Shown piece by piece: positions 36,121-50,918 of a stretch of 64,000 bases of DNA. Positions within the stretch are counted from its first letter, which is position 1. Each line of letters opens with the position of its first letter. This stretch comes from Bacteroidetes bacterium GWB2_32_14 (lineage in GTDB: Bacteria; Bacteroidota; Bacteroidia; Bacteroidales; UBA12077), in the NCBI GenBank assembly GCA_001768235.1, contig MENK01000024.1, positions 1-64,000 of the forward strand, given 5' to 3'. The notes under the pieces were generated by a model. It ran no database searches and was not told the DNA's origin. It worked only from the letters and a program-made list of their open reading frames with translations. The translations under genes and the position numbers were made by a program.

Positions 36121-36224
36121 ATCATATTTATTTTAAGTGTAGGCTTACAAATTTAGTATTTATCTTAAATCAAACAGAAATTTTCGAAATATGTTTATTG
36201 ATAAGTTAATTTTAAATGCGAAAG

Positions 36225-36698
36225 CTAGCTGGTAAGTGTACTCAGTTCTTTTCCAAAATCATGCTGTAAATCTTCATGTAAAGTTGGTAATTTCTTTCGG
36301 ATAAGCTCAATTTGTGTATGGTATAAATTGGCAAGCCGTGGACTCCGATTGATTGATGGTTTTAAATTTTTTAGCTTGGTACAAAAATAAATGAGCAGTT
36401 CTACTTCGGTTTGTTTATTCTGCGAGTAGCGGATATATTTCTTTATATTCGATAATATTTTGCGAACACTTTTTTTAATCAGGTAATAGGTTTTTTTATT
36501 AATCAGCTCAAACTGTTCATCAATCTCCCTTTTTACGCTCTCCACATACGATACTTCGTCAGATTCGAACAAGAGATACGTTAATAATTCCTTGTTTTCT
36601 TTTTTAAAAACCGACAAACGAAGACAGAGTTCAAGCAGTTCCCTGGGTGAACGATTCTTTAATTCTTCTTTGAGTTCTTTAACAGTAACGGCTTTCAT
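36225..36698 (-). CDS. Conserved hypothetical helical protein
   Basis: A 157-residue, strongly charged, mostly alpha-helical soluble protein starting MKAVTVKELKEEL. The repeated Leu/Lys/Glu pattern suggests a helical bundle. It resembles a Bacteroidota-wide family of unknown function, but I cannot name it with confidence. It sits between the EEP nuclease and the GAF histidine kinase genes on the same strand, 57 bases after the kinase stop. Confidence 0.65.
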   Translation of the reverse strand: MKAVTVKELKEELKNRSPRELLELCLRLSVFKKENKELLTYLLFESDEVSYVESVKREIDEQFELINKKTYYLIKKSVRKILSNIKKYIRYSQNKQTEVELLIYFCTKLKNLKPSINRSPRLANLYHTQIELIRKKLPTLHEDLQHDFGKELSTLTS

Positions 36699-36755
36699 TT
36701 ATTCTGTTTAAATAAGAGTTTAATTTTCAGATGTTTTGGCGTGATATTTTTATTC

Positions 36756-38096
36756 TTATTCTTTCGTTATGGGTAAAGTAAATTTAAAATCACTTCCTTT
36801 TCCTGGTTCGCTCTCGACCCAAATTTTCCCGCCATGTTTTTCTACAAACTCTTTACAAAGCAATAAACCTAAGCCCGTTCCTTTTTCATTGGCTGTTCCC
36901 GTGGTTGTATATAGTTGCGATAATTCCCAAAGTTTTGATTGATTGTCTTTGTCAATCCCTGTTCCGTTGTCTGATACTGTTATTGTTATATCAGACGGGT
37001 TATTTTCAGTGTAAATGCTGATTTGCCCTTTTTCGTTTGAAAATTTAATCGCGTTTGAAATTAAATTTCGTAAAATCGTTTTAACCATATCTACATCAGC
37101 CATTAATACAGTTTTCTCGTGTTCAAAACAATTTATTGTTATTTCTTTTTTATTTGCCTGGTTTATCAGGCTATTGGTTACCACGGCACAAATTTCCCTG
37201 AAATCAACTTTTCGTGGCTTAAATGGTATTTTCCCGGATTGTGCCCTTGCCCACAGTAAGATATCTTCCAGTAATTCAAAAGTGTTTTGAGCGGTATTGT
37301 TAATTATATTTAATTGTTTTTCAATTTTTTCAATATCATATTTATGAATGTTGGTTAAAAGTAAGCTCAAAAACCCAAGTATTGTATTAAACGGGCTTTT
37401 TAAATCATGACTGAGAATAGTTATAAAACGGTCTTTGTCGGCATTAAGATGTATTAATTTTTTTTCGCTTTCTTTTACCAGGTTTCGCTCCCTGTTAAGT
37501 TTTATTTTCATTAAGGCAAGGCTGACCTGCTTTGCAACAGACTCGATAAAACGAATTTCACCCTGGGTCCACTTTCTTGGTTCTAAAACCTGGTTTAAGG
37601 CAAACAGGTATAAATTATTATCATCAAAATCGAAAGGATACCAGAGTAAACTTTTAATGTTCATGTATTCGTGCAATATTTTATCTGCCCCGTCGGTAAT
37701 AAAATTTTCATTAATATCAAAATAGTGGCTCTCGATATATTTTTGTGTTTTTTTAGCATGAATATATGAGGATTTGAATAAATCCAGCGAGTAGGTACCT
37801 TTGGTTGCAGAAATTCTGGAATCAGTTGTTTTTAACCATTCGCACAAAGCAACAACCTGGTTTTGTGCGTATGAAACATAATAGATTAAAGCCCTGTCCA
37901 ATTGTAAGGTTTCGCCTAAAACGCGATTAACATCTTCCAGTAAGTCTTCAGGATTTCCTTTTATAACAATTATTTCAGCAATTGAATTCAATGCTGATGT
38001 AAATAATTCCTGTTGTTTACGATAATTATCATTAGAGACTTTAAGCCCGATAATTTGCTTTTCTAATTCTTCATATGTCGGTTTTTTCTTTCTCAT
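36756..38096 (-). CDS. GAF-domain sensor histidine kinase
   Basis: A 446-residue cytoplasmic kinase with no membrane segment. A coiled coil (about 5-30) is followed by a GAF domain (about 35-195), then HisKA with H230 in [13 protein letters not shown]. HATPase has the N box [17 protein letters not shown] and GTGLGLLLC. No receiver domain is fused and no response regulator is adjacent. The GAF ligand cannot be predicted. The gene borders the small-cassette region at 38.2 kb. Confidence 0.92.
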
Positions 38097-38237
38097 ACGG
38101 TTACGTATTACTTGTGCGACAGTCTTCGAAATTTAGACGGGAATTTCCGCCCGGCTTTTTTATCAGTTGAAAAATAAATTTATGAATTTATAAATTTAAT
38201 AACCACTAAACTTCAGTTAAAATTTAAATCGCCCGAT

Positions 38238-38256
38238 GTTACGCATTGACAAAATT
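38238..38256 (-). repeat. Cassette-end repeat, lipoprotein unit (3' side)
   Basis: Plus-strand GTTACGCATTGACAAAATT lies next to the stop codon of the lipoprotein gene. It resembles the reverse complement of the unit's start at 38697-38718 (shared GTTA...ACAAAATT, with gaps), giving complementary ends. This is the weakest of the three repeat pairs. Confidence 0.4.
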
Positions 38257-38691
38257 CTACTTTTCTATAATATAAGTATCTCCTTTCTTTATTAATTCTT
38301 GTCCATTATGCTTTATGGTTTTCAAATTGAAACCGCCAAGGCATTGAATAGCAGGATCTATTTTATATGTAATTTCCAGAGTATCAGTATCAAAATGATT
38401 TAAATAGAGAAAGATTTCATGGTCTGGGTTAAAAGTATTTAATATTCTGGTAGCCATTGACAAAATACTTTCAGCACTTTCAATGTCAAAATACGATTTA
38501 GTTTCATAAGTGTCTTGAAACAAAAAAATTGTATCAGAATTGTAAAAACCGGTTTCAAGCAAATTATTGTCTAGATTATCAATAATTTTAATCTTCAGTT
38601 CGCAACTTATTTCGTCTTTTGAGTCATCAGTACAACTTGTAAAAGCTATCAGGAAAATAAATAGCCCAAATAAAAAATTTTTCAAAGTCAT
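38257..38691 (-). CDS. Putative lipoprotein (cassette-borne)
   Basis: A 144-residue protein with signal peptide and lipobox LIAFTSCTDD (Cys20), so probably membrane-anchored by lipid. The mature part has a beta-rich pattern with a conserved-looking QCLGGFNLKTIKHNGQEL end. I recognise no family. It lies within a unit whose two ends are complementary, like its neighbours, and it follows the same minus-strand orientation. Its small size and isolation fit integron cassette cargo. Confidence 0.65.
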   Translation of the reverse strand: MTLKNFLFGLFIFLIAFTSCTDDSKDEISCELKIKIIDNLDNNLLETGFYNSDTIFLFQDTYETKSYFDIESAESILSMATRILNTFNPDHEIFLYLNHFDTDTLEITYKIDPAIQCLGGFNLKTIKHNGQELIKKGDTYIIEK

Positions 38692-38696
38692 TTTTC

Positions 38697-38718
38697 GAAA
38701 TTTTGTTTATTATATAAC
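38697..38718 (-). repeat. Cassette-start repeat, lipoprotein unit
   Basis: Plus-strand GAAATTTTGTTTATTATATAAC just upstream of the gene start resembles the inverse of 38238-38256 at the unit's other end. The pairing is gapped, so support is moderate. Confidence 0.35.
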
Positions 38719-38873
38719 GATATTCGGTTATGTTTTGCGCTGGAATTATTTGCTGGCACTCATGAGATAGCTTCGCTTAATTTCGCTTAGCGTTTCTTTC
38801 AGCTGCTAACCAAGTTTAAAAATAGTAAAAATTGTCAAAAAAACACTGAATCCCGCTTTTTTTATGATGCAAT

Positions 38874-38889
38874 GTTGGCAATAGTTGTT
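38874..38889 (-). repeat. Cassette-end repeat, toxin-antitoxin unit (3' side)
   Basis: Plus-strand GTTGGCAATAGTTGTT, four bases beyond the toxin stop codon. Its reverse complement matches 39475-39490 at 15 of 16 positions, so the ends of the unit pair with each other. Confidence 0.55.
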
Positions 38890-38892
38890 CTT

Positions 38893-39192
38893 TTATTTGA
38901 TTTTCAAGTCATCAGGATTTTGGTTGCAATCCCAAACAGTATGAACAATAATGAATTCAGAAGCCACTTCATAAAAAAGAATATATTCATCAATAATCAG
39001 TCCGCGAACCGATTCTAAGTCAGTATTAATTCCAATTTCCGGCTGTTTTAGAAGTATTGATAATTCTTTTTTAAATTTCTTGTATAGTTTCTTTGAGTAG
39101 GTTGTACTTTTATTTCTTTCAGAGTAGTAATCGAGTATCTTAAAAAGTTTAATATTTGCTTTATGAGACCAAACTATCTTGCGCTTTGCCAT
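38893..39192 (-). CDS. RelE/ParE-superfamily toxin
   Basis: A 99-residue basic protein with the ParE/RelE fold pattern: KRKIVWSHKANIKLFKILDYY at the start, a central KKFKKELSILLKQPEIG, then RGLIIDEYILFYEV and VHTVWDCNQNPDDL. ParE-type toxins inhibit gyrase and RelE-type ones cleave mRNA; which applies here is not clear. Its start overlaps the antitoxin gene by 19 bases. The pair sits in a unit with complementary ends, as expected for an integron cassette. Confidence 0.9.
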   Translation of the reverse strand: MAKRKIVWSHKANIKLFKILDYYSERNKSTTYSKKLYKKFKKELSILLKQPEIGINTDLESVRGLIIDEYILFYEVASEFIIVHTVWDCNQNPDDLKIK

Positions 39193-39419
39193 TTTTTAAA
39201 TTCTTTGTCAAGTTCAGCTTGTTCAATAAAAAGTCCTTGTTCAATTTCTTTTTTTGATTCAATAATTTCAACTTGTTGATCGGGTGTCAAAGAAATAATT
39301 TGGGATTGTGTCTTAGAGTCAAGTATAGTTTTTAGTGCTTTCAGAAATGATTCATCGTTAATTTCTGCAATTCTATGTATCAATAATTTCTTTAATTCAA
39401 TCGATGTCATAACTTTCAA
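39174..39419 (-). CDS. Antitoxin partner of the ParE/RelE toxin
   Basis: An 81-residue acidic protein (MTSIELKKLLIHRIAEINDESF...) of the type commonly encoded before ParE/RelE toxins in Bacteroidota. The C-terminal part (EIEQGLFIEQAELDKEFKKW) is the region expected to wrap the toxin. The two genes overlap and are co-transcribed. It lacks an obvious N-terminal DNA-binding fold of a named type. MKVMTS gives a second possible start at the third residue after M1. Confidence 0.85.
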   Translation of the reverse strand: MKVMTSIELKKLLIHRIAEINDESFLKALKTILDSKTQSQIISLTPDQQVEIIESKKEIEQGLFIEQAELDKEFKKWQSAR

Positions 39420-39474
39420 AATTTATCAAAGATACAAATATTTTAATAAAAATGTATCTGCTTATAGCGATTTC

Positions 39475-39490
39475 AACAATTATTGCCAAC
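39475..39490 (-). repeat. Cassette-start repeat, toxin-antitoxin unit
   Basis: Plus-strand AACAATTATTGCCAAC, the inverse of 38874-38889 (15 of 16 bases). It overlaps the end of the attC-like body after trpF (39488-39586). Confidence 0.55.
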
Positions 39491-39586
39491 GGTTCGTACT
39501 TACGTTTTGAGCGATCACCCGTTACCGAAAAAAGACAACTGAAATTATAAAAAAACTACCAGCCCTTGCATGGAATAAGAACCGTT
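39488..39586 (-). repeat. attC-like recombination site between trpF and the toxin-antitoxin unit
   Basis: AACGGTTC (39488-39495) pairs with GAACCGTT (39579-39586) across 99 bases. Partial further pairing is interrupted by a single extra base, as in attC L boxes. The GTT at the boundary is preceded by CC. Length and form fit integron attC sites, although the outer box is GTTGGC rather than the strict GTTRRRY. Confidence 0.5.
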
Positions 39587-39596
39587 ATTGTGTGCC
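39582..39596 (-). repeat. Cassette-end repeat, trpF unit (3' side)
   Basis: Plus-strand CCGTTATTGTGTGCC, just beyond the trpF stop. Its counterpart at 40286-40297 (reverse complement CCGTTGTATGCC) matches except for a three-base insertion and one substitution. Confidence 0.5.
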
Positions 39597-39600
39597 GTAT

Positions 39601-40251
39601 TTAATTCCATACATTTTTAAAAAACCGTTCCAGCTTTTCTGGGTCAAGTTTATTATTTGTTCTGACTCCACTGCACAAATCAAGTCCGAAAGGTTGTACT
39701 TGGTCTATAGCCTGTCTTACATTTTCCGGGGTAAGTCCGCCTGCAAGAAATACGGGAACTTTTGATTGTTCCACTATTTTTCTGCTTAATTTCCAATTAT
39801 GAACCCGGCCTGTTCCGCCTAGTTCTTTTATTTTTAAATTTGGGTTTCCACTGTCCAGAAGCAATGCGTCAACAAGATGTGAAATTTTCACTGCTTCATC
39901 TACTGTTTTTTCATCAATTACATGTATAACCTGAACTATTTTTATAGCAGGGAGTTCATTCTTAATAAGTACATAAGAGCTTTCATTAATCTTATCAACA
40001 ATTTGAATTGTACTTGTAAGTGTTCTTTTATGGTGCTGAATAATTTCATTTGCAGAAGTTTCACTTGTCAACATAAATGTAGAAACTGATGGAGGAACTA
40101 TTCTGGCAATCTTCATTATCAGTTCATCCCCGATAACTCCTGGTCCGCTTGGCATATTCCCAACAAGTCCTAATGCAGAAGCTCCATAATTAATTGCAAG
40201 ATTTGCTTCTTCTACTGAACTAATACAACAAATTTTTACTCTTGGTATCAT
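39601..40251 (-). CDS. trpF: Phosphoribosylanthranilate isomerase-like protein (TrpF)
   Basis: A 216-residue TIM-barrel enzyme of the TrpF family, catalysing the Amadori step of tryptophan synthesis. The catalytic cysteine region reads RVKICCISS, where housekeeping TrpF usually has KICG(I/L)T; the following Cys replaces Gly. The catalytic aspartate region is ALLLDSG. The phosphate motifs GGTGRVHNW and FLAGGLTPENV are intact. No other trp gene is nearby. It sits in a unit with complementary ends between the toxin-antitoxin cassette and a transposase remnant, so it is likely cassette cargo, and its substrate may differ. Confidence 0.85.
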   Translation of the reverse strand: MIPRVKICCISSVEEANLAINYGASALGLVGNMPSGPGVIGDELIMKIARIVPPSVSTFMLTSETSANEIIQHHKRTLTSTIQIVDKINESSYVLIKNELPAIKIVQVIHVIDEKTVDEAVKISHLVDALLLDSGNPNLKIKELGGTGRVHNWKLSRKIVEQSKVPVFLAGGLTPENVRQAIDQVQPFGLDLCSGVRTNNKLDPEKLERFFKNVWN

Positions 40252-40285
40252 TTTATTTATAAACTTTAAAAGTCAAAAAAAATAT

Positions 40286-40297
40286 GGCATACAACGG
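40286..40297 (-). repeat. Cassette-start repeat, trpF unit
   Basis: Plus-strand GGCATACAACGG (minus CCGTTGTATGCC), inverse of the repeat at 39582-39596. It lies about 35 bases upstream of the trpF start. Confidence 0.5.
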
Positions 40298-40318
40298 CAG
40301 TTTGTCTAAAAACTGTTT

Positions 40319-40620
40319 TTATTTTAATTTATGATATAATTGAATGCAAAGAGCTACGAGGTATTTACGGAATAGTTCTTTACCCAGAATATTAAATATT
40401 CTGTGGATGTTATGTAAATATCAACCCCCATTTCAGAATCAGCTCTATCTTTTCCCTTTTTAGTCAGAACATAAGAAAATACCCATTGGCGTTGTTCCAC
40501 GATAGCCTGCTGGTTTCTGTATATATCTTTGTATTTATCAAAGTTTTCCTTATTTTTTCAACATATTCGGCGTATTGGCACCGTTGAATGATTCTTCCGT
40601 TCTTTGTAGATTTTGTGCAG
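40319..40620 (-). pseudogene. Frameshifted C-terminal remnant of an IS1182-type transposase
   Basis: Three reading frames on the minus strand join into a transposase tail. The first reads KNGRIIQRCQYAEYVEKIRK, the second FDKYKDIYRNQQAIVEQRQW then FSYVLTKKGKDRADSEMG, and the third HNIHRIFNILGKELFRKYL, ending at a stop at 40319-40321. These match the end of IS1182-family DDE transposases. The usual HPFGT(I/L)K between IVE and RQW is deleted, and two frameshifts break it. The N-terminal and catalytic parts are gone. It abuts the rhuM stop. Confidence 0.8.
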
Positions 40621-40627
40621 AGATATT

Positions 40628-41623
40628 TTAAGGGGCATTATTTTTCCTTTTTTTGGTTTTAGCTTCTAATACTTTCAAACTTTCCAAATAATTTTTTTCT
40701 GCTTCGCTCAATGTTTTTTGCTGATACTTCTTATATTCTGTGGTAGCTTTTTCAATGGCAATTTCATGACTGATAGAGCCTACTCCCTGCAACAGTTTTT
40801 CACCACTCATTGTTAGGATTTTATCTAAATGTTCAGCCCAATCTTTCATTGTCATAGTCTGCTCTCTTTCGGCTTGACGTTCAGCAAAATCCAAATACCC
40901 TGATATTATTTGTCCAAGCGAGCGAAGTTCCTTTTCGTCCAAATAATTTTTTGCTACAACAACATCTTTCAGGTATGGACGATTTCCTGGGAAAGTCATC
41001 AAGCCCATAAATTCTTTTTCGGCATCGGCACGGGTGTAAATTACTTCGGCTGCTGTTTGTCCGTGTACTGCATAATGAATTTTGTTTTGTACCTTTTTAA
41101 AAAATGTAATGGAAACTTCTGCTTTGGGGTCGTAATCAATACTGGTTGCGTAAATATCAAGTACCTGACGATAAAATACTTTTTCGGACGCACGAATATC
41201 TCGAATACGCTGCAATAATTCTTTCCAATAGCCACCACCACCCAAATTTTTGAGGCGTTCATCGTCCATGGTAAAACCTTTACGGATATATTCGCTAAGT
41301 CGTTTGGTTGCCCAAATACGAAATTGGGTACCACGTTGCGATTTTACCCTATACCCAACAGAAATAATAACATTCAGGTTGTAAAATTTTACTGGTTTAT
41401 CGGAATTTGCAATGTGCAAAAATTGCACATTGCTTTTTTCGTCCAATTCGCCTTCCGAAAATATATTGGCAATATGCTTAACTATTACAGTCCTGTCTCT
41501 TTCAAACAATGTAGCCATTTGGTCTTGTGTTAGCCACACTGTTTCATCTTCAAAACGAACATCAACAGATATTTTTTCGTCTTCGGTTTTGAATAAAATA
41601 AAATCTGAATGTTTTTTAACCAT
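40628..41623 (-). CDS. rhuM: RhuM-family protein
   Basis: About 331 residues from MVKKHSDFILFK, the start that lies one base after the dndE-ATPase stop; a longer frame to 41734 would overlap that gene. The RhuM family pattern is clear (VWLTQDQMATLFERDRTVIVKHI, NVIISVGYRVKSQRGTQFRIWA). A C-terminal lysine-rich tail follows a central region (RIRDIRASEKVFYRQVLDIY). RhuM-type proteins accompany restriction-modification and defence loci, and the molecular role is not established. Here it closes the dnd-like operon and may be an accessory. Confidence 0.85.
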   Translation of the reverse strand: MVKKHSDFILFKTEDEKISVDVRFEDETVWLTQDQMATLFERDRTVIVKHIANIFSEGELDEKSNVQFLHIANSDKPVKFYNLNVIISVGYRVKSQRGTQFRIWATKRLSEYIRKGFTMDDERLKNLGGGGYWKELLQRIRDIRASEKVFYRQVLDIYATSIDYDPKAEVSITFFKKVQNKIHYAVHGQTAAEVIYTRADAEKEFMGLMTFPGNRPYLKDVVVAKNYLDEKELRSLGQIISGYLDFAERQAEREQTMTMKDWAEHLDKILTMSGEKLLQGVGSISHEIAIEKATTEYKKYQQKTLSEAEKNYLESLKVLEAKTKKRKNNAP

Positions 41624-41624
41624 A

Positions 41625-43205
41625 TTATTTTTTTCTTTCCCAATGTTGTTTAACCTTAAATAATTTAGCAACTTCAAATTCTTTAATGTTTGAAATTGCT
41701 TGACCTTTTTTGATGTTTTCCATGCTTCGGGCAATTGTTTTACTTGTATTACCTGATAAGCCTAAGAACTTTTCCATTACCTTAATATTCCGGTCCTTAA
41801 TGTCAAGTAAAAAAGCTATTTCACACATGGTTGAAAAATCAAAATCGGGTTGATTATATTCTTCAATCCCTTGTGAAAGTAGCACCACTGAAACACCCTT
41901 TGAGCGAATTTCACGTAACATTTTTTCAAGAATACTTTGATATTTTTTTTCTTTAAAAATTACGTGAGCTTCATCAATTAATATCACATATCGCATTGCT
42001 TTTATGTTATCTTCAACAGGACTATTGTCCATGTTCATAAAAGTATTGTAGATGTAATTGATAATTAAAAACAAAGAGGTAAAACGAACAGAGTTTGATA
42101 AGTCACCCGATAATGACAAATAGAGGTTTTTGGCAAAGAAATTTGATTGATTTTTCGGGTCGTCAATAAATATTTTATAACGACTTAATTCATCCATAAT
42201 TTCAGTCAAAGTATCTTTTTTGTCTCCAACAATACTTTGCAAATGTTCATTTATTTGGCTGATTGATGGATAAGTACCGCCTTTTTGTTCAATAAATGCT
42301 TCTAAAGCCGCTTCACGAAGTTTACCCTTTTGTTTAATTCCAAGATTTGAATATTTACATACAATATCAACAAATTTATCAATCCCCATATTTTTATTAA
42401 CCTCATTCACATTATCAATAAATGTTAGCGGATTTACAGGGAATGGATTTTGTGGAACATCAATAAAGTCCGTTTTAGTATCTGTAAAAAAGTTTTCTAA
42501 TTCTTTTACATCATCTTGTTTTAAACCTTTAAAATCGAGGTAAATATAATTTACATGTCCATTTGATTGCTCAAAAATTTGAGTTAGAAATTCTAATGCA
42601 AATTGAGTTTTTCCAGTTCCAGAATTACCTGCAACTGCTATATGGCAATTATTGTAAATACCTGTATTGTTTAAACTTAAACATATTGGTTCATCGTTAT
42701 CAATGCGCTTACCAACTTCTATTTTAATAGGATTAGAATAGAAAGATTTGTCAATATGTTGCTGATTGTTTTTTACAGGGTCAAGTGAAACATTAAGGTC
42801 GGTTAATGACAATGCCCCTTTTTCAATATGTTCTGCAAGAAAATCAAAAAAAGTATAATTGTAATTGTCTTGAAAAATTCCCTCTAACAATTCCAAACCA
42901 TGGTCTATATGTAATTTTATGTATTTAGGAATGTTTTCATTTGTTTTATAAATTCCGTAATGCTGACAAATCAATGCTACATAAAAATCTCTAAATTTTG
43001 CATCAAAAAGAATATGGTCTTTATATTCTTTCCCTTTAGAATCGTAAACATTACCATCATTGGACGAATATTTTTTTCCTGTTTGTAAAGAATAACCTAA
43101 AGCAATACGTGCAATTACATTTTCTTTGGTGCCATTTGGAAGTTTTGACGTTAATTTTCTTACAACTTCCTGATTTTTTTCCGAAGTTTTTATATTAATC
43201 TGCAT
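41625..43205 (-). CDS. DndE domain fused to a HerA/FtsK-like ATPase
   Basis: A 526-residue two-domain protein. Residues 1 to about 115 resemble DndE, the small nicked-DNA-binding protein of the phosphorothioation complex (VRKLTSKLPNGTKENVIARI, LGYSLQTGKKY, IKLHIDHGLELLE). From about residue 165 follows a P-loop ATPase: Walker A AGNSGTGKT (192-200), Walker B YVILIDEAH (406-414) and VVLLSQGIEEY as a sensor. This resembles HerA/FtsK-type translocases (DUF87/DUF853). Canonical DndE is only 110-130 residues, so the fusion is the notable feature. It overlaps dndD by 11 bases. Confidence 0.85.
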   Translation of the reverse strand: MQINIKTSEKNQEVVRKLTSKLPNGTKENVIARIALGYSLQTGKKYSSNDGNVYDSKGKEYKDHILFDAKFRDFYVALICQHYGIYKTNENIPKYIKLHIDHGLELLEGIFQDNYNYTFFDFLAEHIEKGALSLTDLNVSLDPVKNNQQHIDKSFYSNPIKIEVGKRIDNDEPICLSLNNTGIYNNCHIAVAGNSGTGKTQFALEFLTQIFEQSNGHVNYIYLDFKGLKQDDVKELENFFTDTKTDFIDVPQNPFPVNPLTFIDNVNEVNKNMGIDKFVDIVCKYSNLGIKQKGKLREAALEAFIEQKGGTYPSISQINEHLQSIVGDKKDTLTEIMDELSRYKIFIDDPKNQSNFFAKNLYLSLSGDLSNSVRFTSLFLIINYIYNTFMNMDNSPVEDNIKAMRYVILIDEAHVIFKEKKYQSILEKMLREIRSKGVSVVLLSQGIEEYNQPDFDFSTMCEIAFLLDIKDRNIKVMEKFLGLSGNTSKTIARSMENIKKGQAISNIKEFEVAKLFKVKQHWERKK

Positions 43206-45312
43206 TGTACAATTCTTTATAAGTTTCTAGAAATTCATTGGGCTGACACTCTTTAAACACTGATTTTTCGTTTGAAATATTATCAATCAAGAATGTTTTA
43301 CAAACTTTTGTATGAAGTTGTTTATACTCTTTTTCTGTCAATTCCTTATTTATAAGTGGGAATATAACGACTTGTTTTGAAACATTCGGATAAAAATGTT
43401 TGATAATGTTTTCAGCATGTTGCTCATCAAATTTCTGCATTGGACTGTCAATGAAAACAGGGAATTCAATATCTGATTCATCTACCAACGCATTTAATAA
43501 GGCAGAAGCATACATTTGTCTTTCTCCCATTGAAAGAGAGCCTTTATCAATTTGCTTATTGCTTTTGTTGTATAGTGAAATATCAATATCTTCACCTGTA
43601 TGGCTAATATCCACTTCTACTTTAGTGATAAAATCTTTTTTGTGCATTAAAGTATTTAATCCTTTAAGCATTTTTTCCTCTAAAGACTGTTTTTTCAATT
43701 CCTTGAACTTAGCAATGAATGTTTGAAGCTTGTTAATAATGAGCTTTGTTTTTCTTTCCTTTTCAGAGTATTCAGTTGATTCATCAATTTTTTTTCTTAA
43801 AATTTCTTGTTTTTGTTTAAGAATCTTGGTTTGATTGTTAAGTTCACCAATCTTTTGACTTATTGTTTCAATCTCGTTACCTATTGATAAAATTCGTTTA
43901 TCTAAAGTTTCCTTTTTCCTTCTTAATTCTGCAATGTATTCATCTTCGGCACTTTTTTCAGCATCTCTAATTTTTCTGCTAATTGAATCCAACTGATTTT
44001 TCAAATACGAATATTCAGTATTTAATCTTGCAAAAGTTTCTTTAAAACTATGCTTGATTGTATTTACAAGTTGATTCAACTCATTCGTTTCAGAATTTGA
44101 AAAATCATGTAATGCCTGAAAATTTTCTGGAACATCTGGCACGTCAGAAAAGAAATGTTTTTTAATCAAACGAACTATTTGATTTTCATAGAAATCTCGA
44201 ACATTTGTATCAAAATACAATTTTTCATTAATTCTATGTTGTTCGATTTCTTGTTTTATCTGATTTATTTTTGAATTTACATCTTCTTGTTTATAGGTCT
44301 GTTCAATTAAATTCCTTTCATTAGTAACCTGCTCTGAGATATTCATCAATGTTTCACCTGCCAATGCAAAAGGAATAATATCAAAATAATCCTTTAAACT
44401 TTCTTGTACATCAGATTTTTTCTGTTCAAGTTTTGATTGTTCTTCTTTTAGTAAATTTAGTTCATCGAGGGTCATTTTATCTCCCTCCTTTATTAATCTT
44501 CGTTGAATGTCTTCTGCTTCCTTCTCTTTTTGATTTTTTTCGTGCTTTAAGTCATCTATATTTTCAACGAGTTTTTCAATTTCAATCTTGTTATTTTCAA
44601 TATCTGTATGAAGTTGATTCAATTCCTCCTTTTCTTCTGGTTTTGCAGAACGACGACGATATTCATCCTGTTTTTCCTCAAGGTTTGCTTTTAAATCCTC
44701 ATATTTTTGAATTCCTAAAACTTCAGAATACGCCTTACTTAACTGGCGACGCTGATTATTGGAATTAATTTCAGCAAGTGAAACTATTTTCTCGGCGTCA
44801 AAAAAGAAGAATTTTGCAATTTCAATCGGTAAGATAAAATCACGAATAAATATTTCTTCTCCTTTCTGATTCTCCTTTGTTAAATCTTCAATAAGTTGAT
44901 TTTGATAACCATCAATTAACACTTCAACCCTGTCAGATGTATTGGAAATTATATTATAGCTACGCTTTATTGTAACCTCATTGCATGTTACATCAGGGAT
45001 TTTAACGCCTGAGAAAGTAACGGATACAGAAAACTCAGATTCTCCATCTTCGAATGCTTTCCTGTTTAAACTATTGGAAATATATTTTGTATAATTGCCC
45101 TTATCTCTAATTTCTTTTTCATACAATTCATCAACTTTCTCCATTTGTTTACCATAGAGGCACCAAACGAGTGACATTAAGAAGGTGGTTTTACCAAAAC
45201 CATTTTTACCACTTATTACAATAATATTTTTATCGCCATCAGGCATTAAAGAAATTTTATTAATGCCTTTATATATCCTGAAATTATTCAGTTCTATCTC
45301 TTTAATGTACAT
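43195..45312 (-). CDS. dndD: DNA sulfur-modification protein DndD, SMC/Rad50-like ATPase
   Basis: A 705-residue SMC-like ATPase. Walker A is SGKNGFGKTT (34-43). Two long coiled coils (about 180-330 and 430-570) are separated by a central hinge. The ABC signature is LSMGERQ (about 593-599), and Walker B is VFIDSP (619-624) with Asp622 followed by Ser, so the usual catalytic Glu is not at the next position. DndD is needed to introduce sulfur into the DNA backbone with DndC and DndE. It overlaps dndC and the dndE fusion gene by 11 bases each, so the three are translationally coupled. Confidence 0.88.
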   Translation of the reverse strand: MYIKEIELNNFRIYKGINKISLMPDGDKNIIVISGKNGFGKTTFLMSLVWCLYGKQMEKVDELYEKEIRDKGNYTKYISNSLNRKAFEDGESEFSVSVTFSGVKIPDVTCNEVTIKRSYNIISNTSDRVEVLIDGYQNQLIEDLTKENQKGEEIFIRDFILPIEIAKFFFFDAEKIVSLAEINSNNQRRQLSKAYSEVLGIQKYEDLKANLEEKQDEYRRRSAKPEEKEELNQLHTDIENNKIEIEKLVENIDDLKHEKNQKEKEAEDIQRRLIKEGDKMTLDELNLLKEEQSKLEQKKSDVQESLKDYFDIIPFALAGETLMNISEQVTNERNLIEQTYKQEDVNSKINQIKQEIEQHRINEKLYFDTNVRDFYENQIVRLIKKHFFSDVPDVPENFQALHDFSNSETNELNQLVNTIKHSFKETFARLNTEYSYLKNQLDSISRKIRDAEKSAEDEYIAELRRKKETLDKRILSIGNEIETISQKIGELNNQTKILKQKQEILRKKIDESTEYSEKERKTKLIINKLQTFIAKFKELKKQSLEEKMLKGLNTLMHKKDFITKVEVDISHTGEDIDISLYNKSNKQIDKGSLSMGERQMYASALLNALVDESDIEFPVFIDSPMQKFDEQHAENIIKHFYPNVSKQVVIFPLINKELTEKEYKQLHTKVCKTFLIDNISNEKSVFKECQPNEFLETYKELYNAD

Positions 45313-46648
45313 TTTCAGACTCTTTTTTTAGGTACTTTTCAATAACTCTTTCCATGTCATCTTTTAAACCTCTTTTGCGATTCAATAATGCTTTGTTTTT
45401 TTGCATTATTAAAAGTTCTTGAATTAAGTCAAAATCTGAAGTTTGGTCTTCGCAAACACCTTTAAGCAAAGCGATTTCCTTTTGGATTTTTTCGTCGTTT
45501 TTCTTCATATCCAGTTCTTTATTGTAAACTCTGTTATATATATCTGAAACCCTGTACTCAAAGCATAAATCACGATGCCAAATTACTTGAATTGCAACTA
45601 ATTCTTGATTAGTAACAAGTTCTAAATGTGGTTTTTCAAGCTGAACTTCTCTTTGTGCAATTAGAACTTGTTCTAACAATTTTGCTCTGTATTTTGGGGT
45701 GTAATTTCCCTGAAAATGTCCTTCGTCAGTAATGGCAGATTGACCGTTTCTTCTAGTCGGCATTCGGTTTTCAGAAATATTTCTTTCATCAACCATGCTT
45801 GCTCTTAAATCCAATAATGGTTTTAACCAAGGATAACCCTTACTAACCATTGCTGTCATTGACTTATCTTCTTTTACAACGGTACAAGTCCAACATCCAA
45901 ATCGACTTTGCCCACATGAAGAATGACTTTTGTCTGTTACCATTGTAGGACATTCATAATCATCGGCACTTGCATCGGTGTATATTTTGAAAAGTTTTGA
46001 ATTGTCGGCACCCCATGGCGAAGTCATAGCATTAATAATGTACCAAACTTCTTCAAGCATTAAATCTTTGATTGGGGAATAGACATAAGTATTATGTTGA
46101 TGTGGGTGCTTAGTAAGCCTCTTACCCTTTATTTCGTGCTTTTTGATTGATTTTGCCCTTGTTGCACTTTCCGCACTTCTTGTGCCAATTAAAATTATTG
46201 CTTCACCGTTTTCCGCAACCTGATCAGTTATAAACCTTGATGTTGGTTTAATTTTCATTTTATCAGTACACCAGCGAAAAGCATTATTGGGAACTGGATA
46301 ACCTCTACCAAGTATATTTACCCAAAATGTATCTTCTAAACGTGGAATTGTTTTTTGAACTTCTATTGGTAAGCCTTGTTCAACAGCTGCCTGTTCAATT
46401 TTCTTTAAGATTTCAAAAACATAGTCCGTAACAATTGGATTCTCGACTAAAGTGTCGTTGCAAACCACATAAATCTTTCTATTTCTTAACTCATGAGGAA
46501 TATTTTTAAGTGCAAGCCAAACGAGTTGCAGAAGAGCTGTAGAGTCTTTTCCTCCACTAAATCCAATAATCCAGGGACGTTGAGAATCATTGTCCATTAA
46601 ATATTGGTCTTCAAGTTCTGATATGATGTAATTAATTTTTTTTGACAT
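45302..46648 (-). CDS. dndC: DNA sulfur-modification protein DndC (PAPS-reductase-like)
   Basis: A 448-residue PP-loop ATP pyrophosphatase: SGGKDS (31-36) binds ATP. Cysteines C233, C245, C252 and C255 (YECPT, SSCGQSRFGCWTC) match the 4Fe-4S site of DndC. Other family blocks are NAFRWCTDKMKIKP, GTRSAESATRAK and the SPIKDLMLEEVW segment. It activates the DNA phosphate for sulfur transfer. It heads the operon, with a TAAATTTG -7 box 18 bases before the ATG. No DndA cysteine desulfurase or DndB regulator is present in the window, so another desulfurase would have to supply sulfur. Confidence 0.9.
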   Translation of the reverse strand: MSKKINYIISELEDQYLMDNDSQRPWIIGFSGGKDSTALLQLVWLALKNIPHELRNRKIYVVCNDTLVENPIVTDYVFEILKKIEQAAVEQGLPIEVQKTIPRLEDTFWVNILGRGYPVPNNAFRWCTDKMKIKPTSRFITDQVAENGEAIILIGTRSAESATRAKSIKKHEIKGKRLTKHPHQHNTYVYSPIKDLMLEEVWYIINAMTSPWGADNSKLFKIYTDASADDYECPTMVTDKSHSSCGQSRFGCWTCTVVKEDKSMTAMVSKGYPWLKPLLDLRASMVDERNISENRMPTRRNGQSAITDEGHFQGNYTPKYRAKLLEQVLIAQREVQLEKPHLELVTNQELVAIQVIWHRDLCFEYRVSDIYNRVYNKELDMKKNDEKIQKEIALLKGVCEDQTSDFDLIQELLIMQKNKALLNRKRGLKDDMERVIEKYLKKESENVH

Positions 46649-47321
46649 AATTAGTTTTAAAACTTCAAATTTAGTAAATTTCTATGAGCAGTGAAAAGAA
46701 TGGCTCTTTTGATTTTGCCGAAGGGTTGGCTTTGTGTGTCTGGGCAAAATTAAATGTGCCATTGTGTGTCGTCAATTGTTTTAAAAAATATGCGGTGGGC
46801 AAAAAGTAAAAAACATCGGGCCGTCTTGAGTGTCGGCTTTCTTGTTTTGTCAATATTTCTTTTTCTGTCTGTCCTTTCACAGGTTTACTTTTCAATTTCT
46901 GTCTGTCGTTTCCGTCATCTTACACTTGGTACTAACTACTTTATAGATATACTTTTATCATTTCAATATATCAGCTATAAAGTTAGGATAAACATGTTTG
47001 ATAATTTTTCGATTTTTAAAATTAAACAAAAAATTTAAAAATTCTTTTTCTTTTCTTCAAAACAATTTTTTTACTGACAAATAGGCATATTTCCCGGTTA
47101 AAAGTTTTTTTGTTTTTAAAGACAAAAGCAATTATGCTTTTTACCCCGGCTTGAATAAATACCCTGGGATGCTGATTTATGTTCCTGTTGGAATTCAAAA
47201 ACGTGACGGGTATAATTTATATTCTGTTTAAATTTGGTATATTTATTGACTGGTTTGAAATCGGTGTATATAAGTATGTAAATAATTAATACTAATTTGA
47301 AATTAAATAAATTATAACAAT
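46649..47321. other. Intergenic region upstream of the dnd operon, no gene seen
   Basis: 673 bases without a credible gene. The dnd promoter lies at 46666-46697. Beyond it are GGGCAAAA direct repeats (near 46740 and 46797) and a TTTTGCC/GGCAAAA pair, with compositional shift typical of accessory DNA. The short open frames here have no protein-like pattern. The rest is A/T-rich leader of trxB. Confidence 0.5.
46666..46697 (-). promoter_or_regulatory. Probable promoter of the dnd operon
   Basis: Minus-strand TAAATTTG (plus 46666-46673) is an exact TAnnTTTG match. A TTTT -33-like element lies 20 bases further upstream (46694-46697). The ATG is 18 bases downstream. Confidence 0.5.
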
Positions 47322-48314
47322 ATGGCACTATTTAAAACAATTGAAAACCTGGATGAAAAAGAAAATCAGGATAAATTAGACTCCGGGGTTGAAAAAGTAA
47401 AATGCTTAATAATAGGTTCGGGTCCTGCAGGATATACTGCAGCAATATATGCAGCAAGAGCAAACCTGAATCCTGTATTGTACGAGGGTTTAGAACCTGG
47501 TGGCCAGCTGACTACCACTACCGAAGTAGAAAATTTCCCCGGTTATCCCGATGGAATAACAGGCCCGGCGATGATGGAAGACCTTAAAAAGCAGGCTCAG
47601 CGATTTGGAACCGATGTACGTTTCGGAATTGCCACGGCATCTGATTTATCGAAAAGGCCATTTAAAATTACAATCGACAATAAGAAAGTTGTTGAAGCCG
47701 AGAGTGTTATCATTGCTACAGGAGCAACAGCCAAATATTTAGGACTGGAATCAGAGAAGAAATTCATGGGACAGGGCGTTTCTGCCTGTGCTACCTGCGA
47801 TGGGTTCTTCTATAAGGGAAAAGATGTTGCCGTGGTTGGCGGTGGCGATACTGCAGCAGAAGAAGCAACATATTTGTCGGGTATTTGCAATAAAGTATAT
47901 TTAATTGTGCGAAAAGATTATTTACGTGCATCGAAAGTGATGGTAGAAAGAGTAATGAAAACTCCAAATATAGAAGTTCTGTTTGAGCATGTTACTAAAG
48001 AAATTGTTGGTGATATGAGCGGAGTAACAGGTGTGATTTTAACGAATGCAAAAGGGGAAGAAGTAAAAAAAGATATTCATGGTTTCTTTGTAGCTATAGG
48101 ACATAAACCCAATTCTGACATCTTTAAACCATATATTGATACCGATGAAGTAGGTTATATAATAACCGAAGGCAGTTCATCCAAAACTAAGGTAGATGGT
48201 GTTTTTGCCTGTGGCGATGTTATGGATCCGCATTACAGGCAGGCAATAACTGCTGCTGGTTCAGGATGCAAGGCTGCAATTGATGCAGAGCGATTTTTGG
48301 GTACGCAGAAATAA
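47322..48314 (+). CDS. trxB: Thioredoxin reductase
   Basis: A 330-residue FAD/NADPH flavoenzyme that reduces thioredoxin. The FAD motif is IIGSGPAGYTAA, the redox pair is C156-A-T-C159 in SACATCDGFF, and the NADPH motif is VVGGGDTAAEEA. FAD closing motif GVFACGDVMDP is present. About 25 residues precede the usual start (EKVKCLIIG), so an internal start is possible. It is followed by a strong terminator. Confidence 0.96.
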   Translation: MALFKTIENLDEKENQDKLDSGVEKVKCLIIGSGPAGYTAAIYAARANLNPVLYEGLEPGGQLTTTTEVENFPGYPDGITGPAMMEDLKKQAQRFGTDVRFGIATASDLSKRPFKITIDNKKVVEAESVIIATGATAKYLGLESEKKFMGQGVSACATCDGFFYKGKDVAVVGGGDTAAEEATYLSGICNKVYLIVRKDYLRASKVMVERVMKTPNIEVLFEHVTKEIVGDMSGVTGVILTNAKGEEVKKDIHGFFVAIGHKPNSDIFKPYIDTDEVGYIITEGSSSKTKVDGVFACGDVMDPHYRQAITAAGSGCKAAIDAERFLGTQK

Positions 48315-48316
48315 AA

Positions 48317-48346
48317 AAAAGCCGGTTTAAATTTTAACCGGCTTTT
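48317..48346. terminator. Bidirectional terminator after trxB
   Basis: GCCGGTT (48321-48327) with AACCGGC (48336-48342), flanked by A-run and T-run. It lies between trxB and the convergent oxoamine-synthase gene. Confidence 0.85.
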
Positions 48347-48365
48347 TAAATCTGAATATTTAAGT

Positions 48366-49607
48366 CTATACTTTGGCAATTGATTCGGCCCTGTATTCGC
48401 CGGCAATTAATTTTTTATGTACTGCTTTAAATGCATTAATCGTATATTCAACATCTTCTAATGTATGTGCAGCTGTTGGAATAATACGTAGCATTAATTG
48501 TCCTTTTGGAATAACCGGGTAGGTTACAATAGAGCAGAAAACATTATAATTTTCCCTTAAATCCATTGTAATGTTTGTTCCTTCAGGTACACTTCCCGAG
48601 AAGAATACAGGAGTTACAGGTGATTCTGTTTTCCCGAGGTTAAATCCTGCTTCGCGCAATCCTTTTTGTAATGCATGGGTTATTTTCCAAAGATTCTCGC
48701 GGAGTTGTTTCTGGGATTTTAATAACTCAAGTCTTTTTAAAGAGCCAACAACCAAAGGCATAGGAAGCGATTTTGCAAAAATCTGTGAACGCATATTGTA
48801 ACGTAAGAAGTTGATTACTTCTTCTGTTGAAGCAACAAACGCACCTATCCCTGCCATTGCTTTTGCAAATGTGGCAAAGTAAACATCAATTTCACCCTGA
48901 ACACCTAAATGTTCGCCGGTACCGGCTCCTGTTGCTCCCATTGTTCCAAAACCATGAGCATCGTCAACCAGGAGTCTGAAGTTAAATTTCTTTTTAAACG
49001 AAACGATTTCTTTTAATTTACCCAAATCGCCAGCCATACCAAAAACACCTTCGGTAATAACCAAAATCCCGCCATTTGTTTTTTCAACAAGCTTTGATGC
49101 ATGTTCAAGTTGTTTTTCAAAGCTTTGCATGTCGTTATGCGTGTAAACGAATCGTTTTCCCATGTGTAAGCGCAATCCATCAAGAATACATGCATGTGCT
49201 TCAGAATCATATACAATAACATCGTTCCTGCTTACAAGAGTATCAATAATTGAAACCATCCCCTGGTAACCAAAATTGAGAAGGTAAGCATCATCTTTAC
49301 CAACGAATTCGGCCAGCTGGTTTTCCAGTTCCTCGTGCAAAGTAGTTTGCCCCGACATCATTCGTGCTCCCATTGGATAGGCAAGGCCATATTGTTTCGA
49401 TGCATCGGCATCTGCTTTTCGTACTTCGGGGTGATTTGCCAAACCGATATAATTATTTAAACTCCATGTCAGAACTTCTTTTCCGCGAAACTTCATACGG
49501 GGAGCAATTTCTCCTTCGAGTTTTGGAAAAGTGAAGTAACCATGTGCTTCTTTCATGTACTGACCCAGGGGGCCCATACTCTTTTGTATTTTATCGAATA
49601 AGTCCAC
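48366..49607 (-). CDS. Alpha-oxoamine synthase family PLP enzyme
   Basis: A 413-residue fold-type I PLP enzyme. The PLP lysine is K249 in FATFAKAMAGIGAF. The DDAHG motif (215-219) and HNDM block are those of the alpha-oxoamine synthases (glycine C-acetyltransferase, 8-amino-7-oxononanoate synthase, serine palmitoyltransferase, cysteate acyltransferase). In Bacteroidota this group includes enzymes of sphingolipid and sulfonolipid synthesis. Substrate cannot be fixed from sequence, and no neighbouring lipid or biotin genes resolve it. A lipid role is a reasonable inference. Confidence 0.85.
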   Translation of the reverse strand: MDLFDKIQKSMGPLGQYMKEAHGYFTFPKLEGEIAPRMKFRGKEVLTWSLNNYIGLANHPEVRKADADASKQYGLAYPMGARMMSGQTTLHEELENQLAEFVGKDDAYLLNFGYQGMVSIIDTLVSRNDVIVYDSEAHACILDGLRLHMGKRFVYTHNDMQSFEKQLEHASKLVEKTNGGILVITEGVFGMAGDLGKLKEIVSFKKKFNFRLLVDDAHGFGTMGATGAGTGEHLGVQGEIDVYFATFAKAMAGIGAFVASTEEVINFLRYNMRSQIFAKSLPMPLVVGSLKRLELLKSQKQLRENLWKITHALQKGLREAGFNLGKTESPVTPVFFSGSVPEGTNITMDLRENYNVFCSIVTYPVIPKGQLMLRIIPTAAHTLEDVEYTINAFKAVHKKLIAGEYRAESIAKV

Positions 49608-49763
49608 TTTACTTAAATTTTAAGTTAAATTTGATGGCACAAAAGTAAACTTTTTTAAAAAATTAGCAAGCAGAAGAAAATAATTTAGCTATTTTCGCCG
49701 TTTTAAACAATTAAATTTTATCATCTTAAACTAAAAATGTACATTTGCAAAATGTTTGAAAAA

Positions 49764-50546
49764 ATGAACCGATTATTATTTATATTAGCTTTTATAGCTT
49801 TATTTACATCATGTAAATACGAAAAATTACTTAAAAGCCATGATTACAAGCTTAAATACCAGAAAGCCCTGGAATATTATGCTGAAGAAGATTATATAAG
49901 GGCCGATGGTTTGTTTGAACAGCTAAAACCGATTTTAAAAGGTTCTATTCAGGCTGATACCGTATTTTTTTACAGTGCCTATTGTAATTTCTACCAGGAA
50001 GATTATCTCTTGGGAGCACATTATTTTGATGAGTTTAGAAGAACATTCGGGAATAGTCCCTTTGCTGAAGAAGCAGAATTTATGAGTGCTTATTGTACAT
50101 ATAAATTATCTCCCCGTCCGACCCTGGATCAATCCTATTCAACTAAAACAATATCTCAAATCGGACTTTACCTTTCAAAATACCCAAATTCACCGAGGAA
50201 AGATGAATGTATGAGAATAATTGAAGAACTGAGAAATAAACTTGTTGAAAAATCATACCTGAGTGCAAAATTATATTATAACCTGAGCGATTATAAAGCA
50301 GCGGTTATAGCTTTAAATAACAGCCTTGAACAATTTCCCGAAACAAAATACAGGGAAGAAATCATGTTTTTAATTCTAAAAGCCAGTTTCTTACTTGCCG
50401 AAAATAGTGTTGCAGAGAAAAAGATTGAACGATACCAGGCAACTGTAGATGAATATTACACGTTTACTGAAGAATTTCCTGGAAGCAGTTATTTAAAGGA
50501 AGCTGAGAAGATGTTTTCTGATTCCCGAAAAATATTAAAAAATTAA
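49764..50546 (+). CDS. bamD: Outer-membrane assembly lipoprotein BamD
   Basis: About 260 residues from MNRLLFILAFI; an in-frame start at 49737 would add nine residues. The lipobox is FTSC (Cys17), so it is lipid-anchored in the periplasm. The mature protein is built of TPR-like helical repeats (ALEYYAEEDYIRADGLFEQL, KLYYNLSDYKAAVIALNNSL, YYTFTEEFPGSSY) typical of BamD, which assists BamA in folding outer-membrane proteins. It opens the bamD-rpoZ-coaBC-porD-recN block conserved in Bacteroidota. Confidence 0.9.
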   Translation: MNRLLFILAFIALFTSCKYEKLLKSHDYKLKYQKALEYYAEEDYIRADGLFEQLKPILKGSIQADTVFFYSAYCNFYQEDYLLGAHYFDEFRRTFGNSPFAEEAEFMSAYCTYKLSPRPTLDQSYSTKTISQIGLYLSKYPNSPRKDECMRIIEELRNKLVEKSYLSAKLYYNLSDYKAAVIALNNSLEQFPETKYREEIMFLILKASFLLAENSVAEKKIERYQATVDEYYTFTEEFPGSSYLKEAEKMFSDSRKILKN

Positions 50547-50566
50547 ATATTAATAAATAGTTCAGT

Positions 50567-50899
50567 ATGATCGATTACAAAAAAACCAAAGCTCCGGTTA
50601 CAACTGTTACACGTAATCTTGCAGATTTAAATAAAGATACAGGTAATATATACGAAACAGTTGCGATCGTGTCGAAAAGAGCAAATCAGATTAGTGGAGA
50701 GCTTAAGGAAGAGTTAAACAGGAAATTAGAAGAATTTGCTTCTTATACCGATAACCTTGAAGAGGTTTTCGAAAACAGAGAACAGATTGAGATTTCTAAA
50801 TTTTATGAACGTTTACCAAAACCTACTTTAATTGCAATGCAGGAATTTCTTGATGATCAGGTTTATTTCAGAAAACCTGAAATCGAAGAAGTAGAATAA
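50567..50899 (+). CDS. rpoZ: RNA polymerase omega subunit, Bacteroidota type
   Basis: A 110-residue protein with the Bacteroidota omega pattern (TVTRNLADLNKDTGNIYETV, IVSKRANQIS). The position between bamD and coaBC is the conserved location of this subunit in the phylum. It helps assemble the beta-prime subunit. Sequence is divergent from E. coli RpoZ, but the SKRANQIS block corresponds to the canonical AxRxRQL region. Confidence 0.88.
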   Translation: MIDYKKTKAPVTTVTRNLADLNKDTGNIYETVAIVSKRANQISGELKEELNRKLEEFASYTDNLEEVFENREQIEISKFYERLPKPTLIAMQEFLDDQVYFRKPEIEEVE

Positions 50900-50918
50900 G
50901 GCTTGCAAAAATTAGCTT

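Follow-up and report, generated by a model that had tools for sequence, protein, structure and literature searches.

What is a rhuM gene doing at the end of a DNA phosphorothioation operon that stands without dndA, dndB or dndFGH? The question is raised by positions 40628-46648 of a 64,000-nucleotide stretch of DNA from Bacteroidetes bacterium GWB2_32_14 (contig MENK01000024.1, positions 1 to 64,000; hereafter the window), where dndC, dndD, dndEi (a dndE-ATPase gene) and rhuM follow one another on the minus strand. An earlier description made from the letters alone, here called the sequence-only reading, had presented them as a reduced locus in which either the modification is solitary, or RhuM and the ATPase provide an unrecognised restriction activity. 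We find that the modification core is of an already known kind and that rhuM is the unusual part of the operon. The explanation that we prefer, and to which we give about an even chance, is a DndEi-type phosphorothioation operon in which RhuM serves as an accessory protein that binds DNA and whose recognition segment can be exchanged, and not as a nuclease.

The four genes form a tight operon on the minus strand. dndC (46648-45302) encodes a PP-loop sulfurtransferase of 448 amino acids (aa), dndD (45312-43195) a 705 aa SbcC/Rad50-like ABC ATPase, dndEi (43205-41625) a 526 aa protein that joins a DndE domain to a HerA/FtsK ATPase, and rhuM (41623-40628) a 331 aa protein with a Bro-N-like winged helix and a helical C-terminal domain. 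Open reading frames (ORFs) and family models confirmed these coordinates as first proposed, together with the overlaps of 11 bases between dndC and dndD and of 11 bases between dndD and dndEi, and the single base between the dndEi stop and the rhuM ATG. For rhuM the ORF listing gives a TTG start at 41734; the ATG at 41623 agrees with the relative in locus L025 and lies one base after the dndEi stop. RhuM had been described as fused into the operon: it does belong to it, but as a gene of its own, with no fusion to dndEi at the protein level. Upstream, TAAATTTG (46673-46666, minus strand) lies 25 bases before the dndC start and is what we take to be a -7 box of the Bacteroidota type. A TAnnTTTG box is present at -24/-25 of dndC in the related loci L025, L057 and L013, but not in L014; such a box occurs within 80 nt upstream of dndC in 15 of 57 loci and on the opposite strand in 2 of 57. 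A pattern search found no second copy of the operon's upstream pattern in the window, and across 134 loci the pattern matched only in two loci of the same place.

Are the core enzymes fit to modify DNA? DndC matches TIGR03183 at 447 bits (cut-off 290.4) and the PADLOC DndC model at 495 bits, carries the SGGKDS motif and the cysteines C252 and C255, and retains 112 of the 113 positions at which no fewer than 97% of 57 relatives agree, the remaining one being a mild change of isoleucine to valine. DndD scores 283.9 bits with TIGR03185 (cut-off 245.85), has a Walker A motif (GKNGFGKT) and a signature motif (LSMGE), and retains all 140 positions conserved at the same level among 54 relatives. In DndEi, residues 5-109 match the DndE family PF08870 at 69.4 bits (cut-off 25) and score 40.9 bits with the NCBIfam model TIGR03184, under its cut-off of 71.85, a shortfall that we take to be an effect of the fused DndE subtype. 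The second half of the protein (aa 147-510, Walker A motif GNSGTGKT) resembles the C-terminal ATPase of DndH, with 90 bits for the PADLOC DndH model and an E value of 1.3e-12 against the solved DptH fragment (PDB 7es4), and it encloses a match to the helicase/ATPase domain ResIII at aa 374-429. All 120 positions conserved in at least 97% of 63 DndEi relatives are retained. Since DndC, DndD and DndEi keep nearly every conserved residue they should modify DNA, and we infer from sequence that the operon makes phosphorothioate.

The protein has a DndE domain and a HerA/FtsK-type ATPase within one ORF, which places it in the DndEi subtype. Zheng et al. in 2016 reportedly described DndEi as a helicase essential for DNA modification. 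In PMC7464106 the name is given to DndE proteins that carry a DNA helicase domain as well, and their presence in Bacteroidales is mentioned; PMC10853773 describes a fusion of DndE with a HerA/FtsK domain of clade 3, next to a DndD-related ATPase. The window's operon shares with such DndC-DndD-DndEi systems a DndE with a helicase or HerA/FtsK domain next to DndD, and differs from them in the rhuM that comes next. The best PADLOC model for the window's DndD carries the label PbeC (1090 bits), which links it with PbeABCD/CxC-ABC systems; we rejected this label for want of a CxC motif. Neither CxC nor CxxC occurs in the window's DndD, nor in the coiled-coil region of any of the 54 relatives. Compared with what a section of PMC10853773 says of PbeABCD/CxC-ABC, the window differs in having no CxC in the coiled coil, in the presence of DndC and in that no adjoining HKD-helicase gene was seen, and its ABC ATPase therefore belongs with DndD.

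Partner genes were sought in the whole host genome, an assembly of 36 contigs that is 98.95% complete, using profiles of DndH, DndF, DndB, DndA/aminotransferases, PAPS reductase and RhuM. No match to DndB (PF14072) was found in the host genome at E 0.001. The DndH model PDLC02685 matched only the ATPase of DndEi, in a search where 4 of 14 controls were positive, possibly as ATPase-only matches themselves; DndF (TIGR03238) gave no match in the host genome, with 0 of 14 controls positive in the same search. The earlier statement that dndB and a recognised dndH are lacking is thereby extended from the window to the genome. As to dndA, it stands in the sense that no desulfurase of the host genome exceeds the DndA cut-off, but two desulfurases were found below it. 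The better one is a cysteine desulfurase fused to a pair of AIRS/AIRS_C (SelD-like) domains (L135, 1459-3705, on G000:C8); the second has a strong Aminotran_5 score, and we take it to be SufS. IscS-type enzymes can substitute for DndA according to portions of PMC7464106 and PMC10853773, so the missing dndA is no puzzle. The 2024 survey (PMC10853773) states that the modification genes often occur uncoupled from DndFGH; among taxa with modification genes it counts DndA in 32% and DndB in 51%. Only one RhuM copy is present in the genome. A PAPS_reduct match at G000:C14 was considered as a second dnd locus and rejected, its neighbours being helicase-like and ParB-like as judged from the protein text. 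With the conserved positions of the core intact, the absence of partner genes is not decay. The label "reduced" fits the set of genes as it was described, but not the subfamily, for which a locus without dndA, dndB and dndFGH is an ordinary state.

What relatives carry in place of rhuM was seen in 67 related DndEi loci, 61 of them from Bacteroidota by record title and the other six from Ignavibacteria or Melioribacteraceae (2), proteobacterial bins (3) and another bacterium (1). Their distribution is scattered: at family level 3 of 25 genomes contain DndEi, at order level 12 of 393 and at phylum level 4 of 395, counts obtained at differing E limits and with the host genome included. The order dndC-dndD-dndEi is common to the relatives whose contigs extend far enough, with exceptions: dndD is cut short in L035 and L064 and was not detected in L046, and a few loci have interrupted ORFs. 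In L035 (5965-6927), L046 and L064 an HNH gene lies directly after dndC, as if inserted into dndD.

The position after dndEi is an exchange slot for unrelated accessory modules. It was scored in the 65 loci whose sequence extends 1.5 kb or more beyond dndEi (in L018 and L039 it is shorter), families being scanned on cluster representatives and not on each member. A small gene and a DndB-type protein occupy it in 24 of 65 loci, the one small gene scanned being weakly GIY-YIG-like, under cut-off; a ParB-like gene (assigned by eye, and similar to PADLOC PD-Lambda-5_A) with a gene of no family in 16; a GHKL ATPase with Methyltransf_35 in 7 (for example L028, 5357-7634); and something else or nothing in 17, a catch-all class in which modules may have gone unrecognised. 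rhuM was found there, besides the window, in one locus only, L025. The ParB-like gene (c0) and its partner of about 330 aa (c1), as at 7741-9916 of L015, with a c1 representative that matches no Pfam or PADLOC family, are a candidate effector of phosphorothioation. On the DndEi tree the slot changes at least 30 times over 65 labelled rows, compared with 34.5 ± 1.9 in 300 shuffles, 5 of which gave 30 or fewer. Read from this quick tree, in which 17 of 64 inner branches are open and L074 was omitted as short, slot content tracks the core phylogeny only weakly. The exchange is visible at close range: in L057, whose DndEi is 95% identical, nucleotide similarity to the window runs as far as the dndEi stop codon and no further, and the slot holds the GHKL and methyltransferase genes; in L013 (90% identical) nothing recognisable follows; and in L025 the similarity continues through rhuM. 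Among nine new order-level regions (L088, L091-L093 and L261-L265) none has rhuM in the slot, and two of them, L091 and L092, with DndEi just 29-32% identical, have no dndC match; the same survey returned L057, L014, L017, L044 and L018 again as L257, L258, L259, L260 and L089.

What kind of protein is RhuM? It matches PF13310 at 356 bits (cut-off 33.7) over positions 17-249 of the 252 in the profile, and no nuclease family is among its Pfam, PADLOC and NCBIfam matches. PADLOC classes proteins of this type as candidate defence proteins (PDC-S05). Its matches in a viral library include many proteins with Bro-N, KilA-N and repressor domains, and most of the invariant positions lie in its C-terminal domain. 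Against the PDB no credible match was obtained by sequence. A model built from an alignment of 66 sequences (mean predicted local distance difference test score, pLDDT, 84.9) was compared with the PDB using Foldseek, and DdrC of Deinococcus radiodurans took ranks 1-6 (E 7e-4 to 2e-2), the next, unrelated match being at 0.15. The VIA-align comparison with DdrC gave Z 9.2 over 213 residues of the 226-residue chain, with both domains in order and a root mean square deviation (rmsd) of 6.4; in an earlier, poorer model from 13 sequences DdrC was again on top, at Z 9.1 on the C-terminal half. The predicted RhuM thus resembles DdrC in fold, with a winged-helix N-terminus and a helical C-terminal domain in the same order, which is suggestive and not proof. 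It differs from DdrC in having no detectable sequence similarity to it, and DdrC is a DNA-damage response protein. PMC5436757 describes DdrC as binding single- and double-stranded DNA, shielding it from nucleases, condensing it and promoting its circularisation. In the open-access literature searched we found no activity known for RhuM and no link of RhuM with dnd or phosphorothioate, or with DdrC or Deinococcus; for RhuM with hsd genes, RhuM was not found among the matches listed.

Comparison of the two rhuM genes that sit in a dnd slot revealed a mosaic. The window's RhuM and that of L025 share 86% of residues in aa 1-35 and 94% in aa 81-300, but 38% in aa 36-80, a stretch of the predicted winged helix encoded at 41518-41384 on the minus strand. 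The same drop is found in the DNA, where two 50-base windows at its core have 21 and 17 identities and the next two 34 and 35, the other windows having 38-48 apart from the last, at the gene end, with 26. The window's segment is 73% identical to that of L202, the rest of the two proteins being 43-50% identical, and the L025 segment is 76% identical to that of L192 (rest 43-61%). Counts of informative sites gave Fisher p-values of 2e-17 to 4e-13, which overstate the case, segment and donors having been chosen after viewing the data. Among 28 RhuM pairs with a C-terminal identity of at least 85%, some sharing members, 12 have a segment identity of 60% or less. No comparable block exists between the DndC, DndD and DndEi proteins of the window and L025 (lowest 50-residue stretch 76%), so that what changed is the presumed DNA-reading part of RhuM, and not the modification core or its DndE domain. 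Most likely, judging from these alignments, the winged-helix segment was swapped by recombination. The recognition domains of HsdS are exchanged by recombination, and we liken the RhuM segment to them.

RhuM is also lodged beside other modification systems. Of 395 genomes sampled from the window's phylum, 117 have it. In 13 of the 30 best-scoring loci, a sample that favours high scores and a single genus code, it lies within 60 bases of a same-strand restriction-modification gene, in operons of hsdM/hsdS, hsdR or mod, and overlaps of 4 bases are frequent. Nine of the 13 were assigned by Pfam scan and four (L157, L158, L162 and L163) by text nearly identical to that of L156. In L164 rhuM stands beside a YhcG nuclease, and in the viral contig L114 between a DNA methylase gene (mod) and a type III-like restriction subunit gene (res). 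At 39-3743 of L161 it is found between SbcD-like and SbcC-like genes. The likeness of the window to the type I and type III operons lies in PF13310 and in the tight lodging with modification genes; the difference is that the window's operon would put sulfur on the DNA backbone and not methyl groups on bases.

We propose the following mechanism. DndC would activate sulfur from a housekeeping cysteine desulfurase, either the NifS-SelD-like fusion or SufS, and DndD and DndEi would act as an ATP-driven machine that scans and opens DNA and places the sulfur. The slot after dndEi, which is home to unrelated modules in relatives, would here hold rhuM. Through its Bro-N-type winged helix, whose recognition segment would have been replaced by recombination, RhuM may read DNA, and its DdrC-like helical domain may dimerise and hold it; that the DNA held has nicked or broken ends is a guess from DdrC. 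RhuM would thereby label or retain DNA that is not the modified DNA of the host, or ends arising from defence, as an accessory of a modification-based defence.

Several points weigh against this proposal. rhuM occurs in the slot only in the window and L025, which are sisters on the DndEi tree (Shimodaira-Hasegawa-like approximate likelihood ratio test, SH-aLRT, 87; not starred), so a single acquisition suffices for both. In 15 of the 30 RhuM loci there is no linked restriction-modification, nuclease or sbcCD gene (in L150, one of these, the neighbours are on the opposite strand), and RhuM may be merely a mobile passenger. Sequence homology with DdrC was not detected by profiles of 13 and 66 RhuM sequences at E up to 10. 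One Foldseek match to DdrC alone is under E 0.001, a Z of about 9 is not decisive for helical proteins when the rmsd across both domains is 6.4, and for the N-terminal domain by itself partition and Dachshund/Ski proteins (Z 6.1-6.8) do about as well as DdrC (Z 7.0). One protein, L168, moreover, recurs in many of the mosaic pairs.

The rival that survives best is that the modification is solitary, phosphorothioate being an epigenetic mark or antioxidant and rhuM a mobile passenger or a winged-helix autoregulator in the place of DndB. The 17 of 65 relatives without a recognised module after dndEi, the 24 with a DndB pair in the slot, the wide occurrence of RhuM in the phylum, its unlinked half of the sampled loci and its Bro-N/repressor-like N-terminus all agree with such a role. 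However, the 1-base gap and the repeated lodging of RhuM in modification operons suggest a shared task, and most of its invariant positions are in the C-terminal domain. We consider this rival unlikely, though a real contender.

Could restriction come from elsewhere in the genome, by an enzyme that senses phosphorothioate? This explanation is compatible with the others, and the dnd loci of relatives do contain nuclease-type genes, an HNH cluster in 5 of 67 and HARE-Mrr in 9 of 67; the genome searches covered only the six groups of families named above. Yet DndH was matched solely as the DndEi ATPase, and among the scanned proteins of 35-48 kb of the window a single nuclease-type family appeared, that of an Exo_endo_phos_3 gene (35101-36120, with a small neighbour at 36225-36698), which lies outside the island and also stands beside trxB in same-genus genomes without dndEi. 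We regard an outside enzyme as rather unlikely.

That Exo_endo_phos_3 gene and trxB are the flanks of the island, and the site between them is variable in same-genus genomes (10 regions compared, some short). The two genes are about 0.4 kb apart in L128 and L131, and unrelated genes occupy the site in L125 and L129, which makes it probable that the operon came into a variable site by acquisition. At 1833-11788 of L127 the trxB site has a type II CRISPR-Cas-like locus, with a Cas9-like ORF of 1301 aa and a repeat array as read from the text. No DndEi relative appeared in a scan of viral contigs and none matched a plasmid at E 1e-40, so those collections give no sign of transfer, and the repeats around the island amount to short, diverged matches only.

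A further rival makes RhuM a toxin-like effector that harms the cell once the modification system is overcome, with proteins or nucleic acids as targets. It was proposed in a passage of PMC3710099 from a neighbourhood of PrrC and restriction-modification genes and from fusions to DOC domains, and the PDC-S05 class agrees with it. No enzyme family is matched over its cut-off, however, the best fold match is a protein that binds DNA, and a mosaic segment for reading DNA suits a DNA reader better than a protein-modifying toxin, all of which makes the toxin doubtful. Weakest is the joint restriction activity of RhuM and the DndEi ATPase from the sequence-only reading, which draws on the kinship of that ATPase with the DndH translocase of the DndFGH (DptFGH) restriction complex and which we hold to be very improbable: no nuclease domain is recognised in either protein, the RhuM model resembles the DNA-binding DdrC with a Bro-N-type N-terminus, the same ATPase fusion is present in relatives without rhuM, and published work cited in a passage of PMC7464106 ties the helicase activity of DndEi to modification. 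The operon differs from the DndFGH complex in that the restriction endonuclease-bearing part of DndH is absent and the host genome gave no other DndH match.

Two neighbours of the island were noted besides. A trpF gene (phosphoribosylanthranilate isomerase; 39601-40251, minus strand) lies just downstream of the operon, and no other tryptophan gene was noticed among the listed ORFs of 36000-52000. At 38893-39419, also on the minus strand, a ParE-type toxin gene (PF05016) is preceded by an overlapping 81 aa ORF that matches no family, and the two probably form a toxin-antitoxin system of type II next to the island.

Beyond this locus, our preferred explanation of RhuM as a DNA-binding accessory can be extended to the family. 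Tentatively, RhuM may be a general specificity-swapping DNA-binding accessory with a DdrC-related fold, which plugs into type I, type III and phosphorothioate operons, whose segment recombines independently of the specificity of the modification enzymes, and which here would hold or mark nicked or foreign DNA. RhuM is common in the phylum and carries a virulence name; the DdrC-like model and the mosaic segment give it a testable activity. A DNA-reading role, if true, would account for its recurrence in several modification systems. The map of slot contents offers a natural experiment, in which related phosphorothioation cores are combined with four interchangeable modules or with none recognised, and could reveal the use of phosphorothioation where DndFGH is missing. 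On the basis of predicted structure and comparison, the most useful outcome is the lead on RhuM itself as a DdrC-like, recognition-swapping protein of several modification systems.

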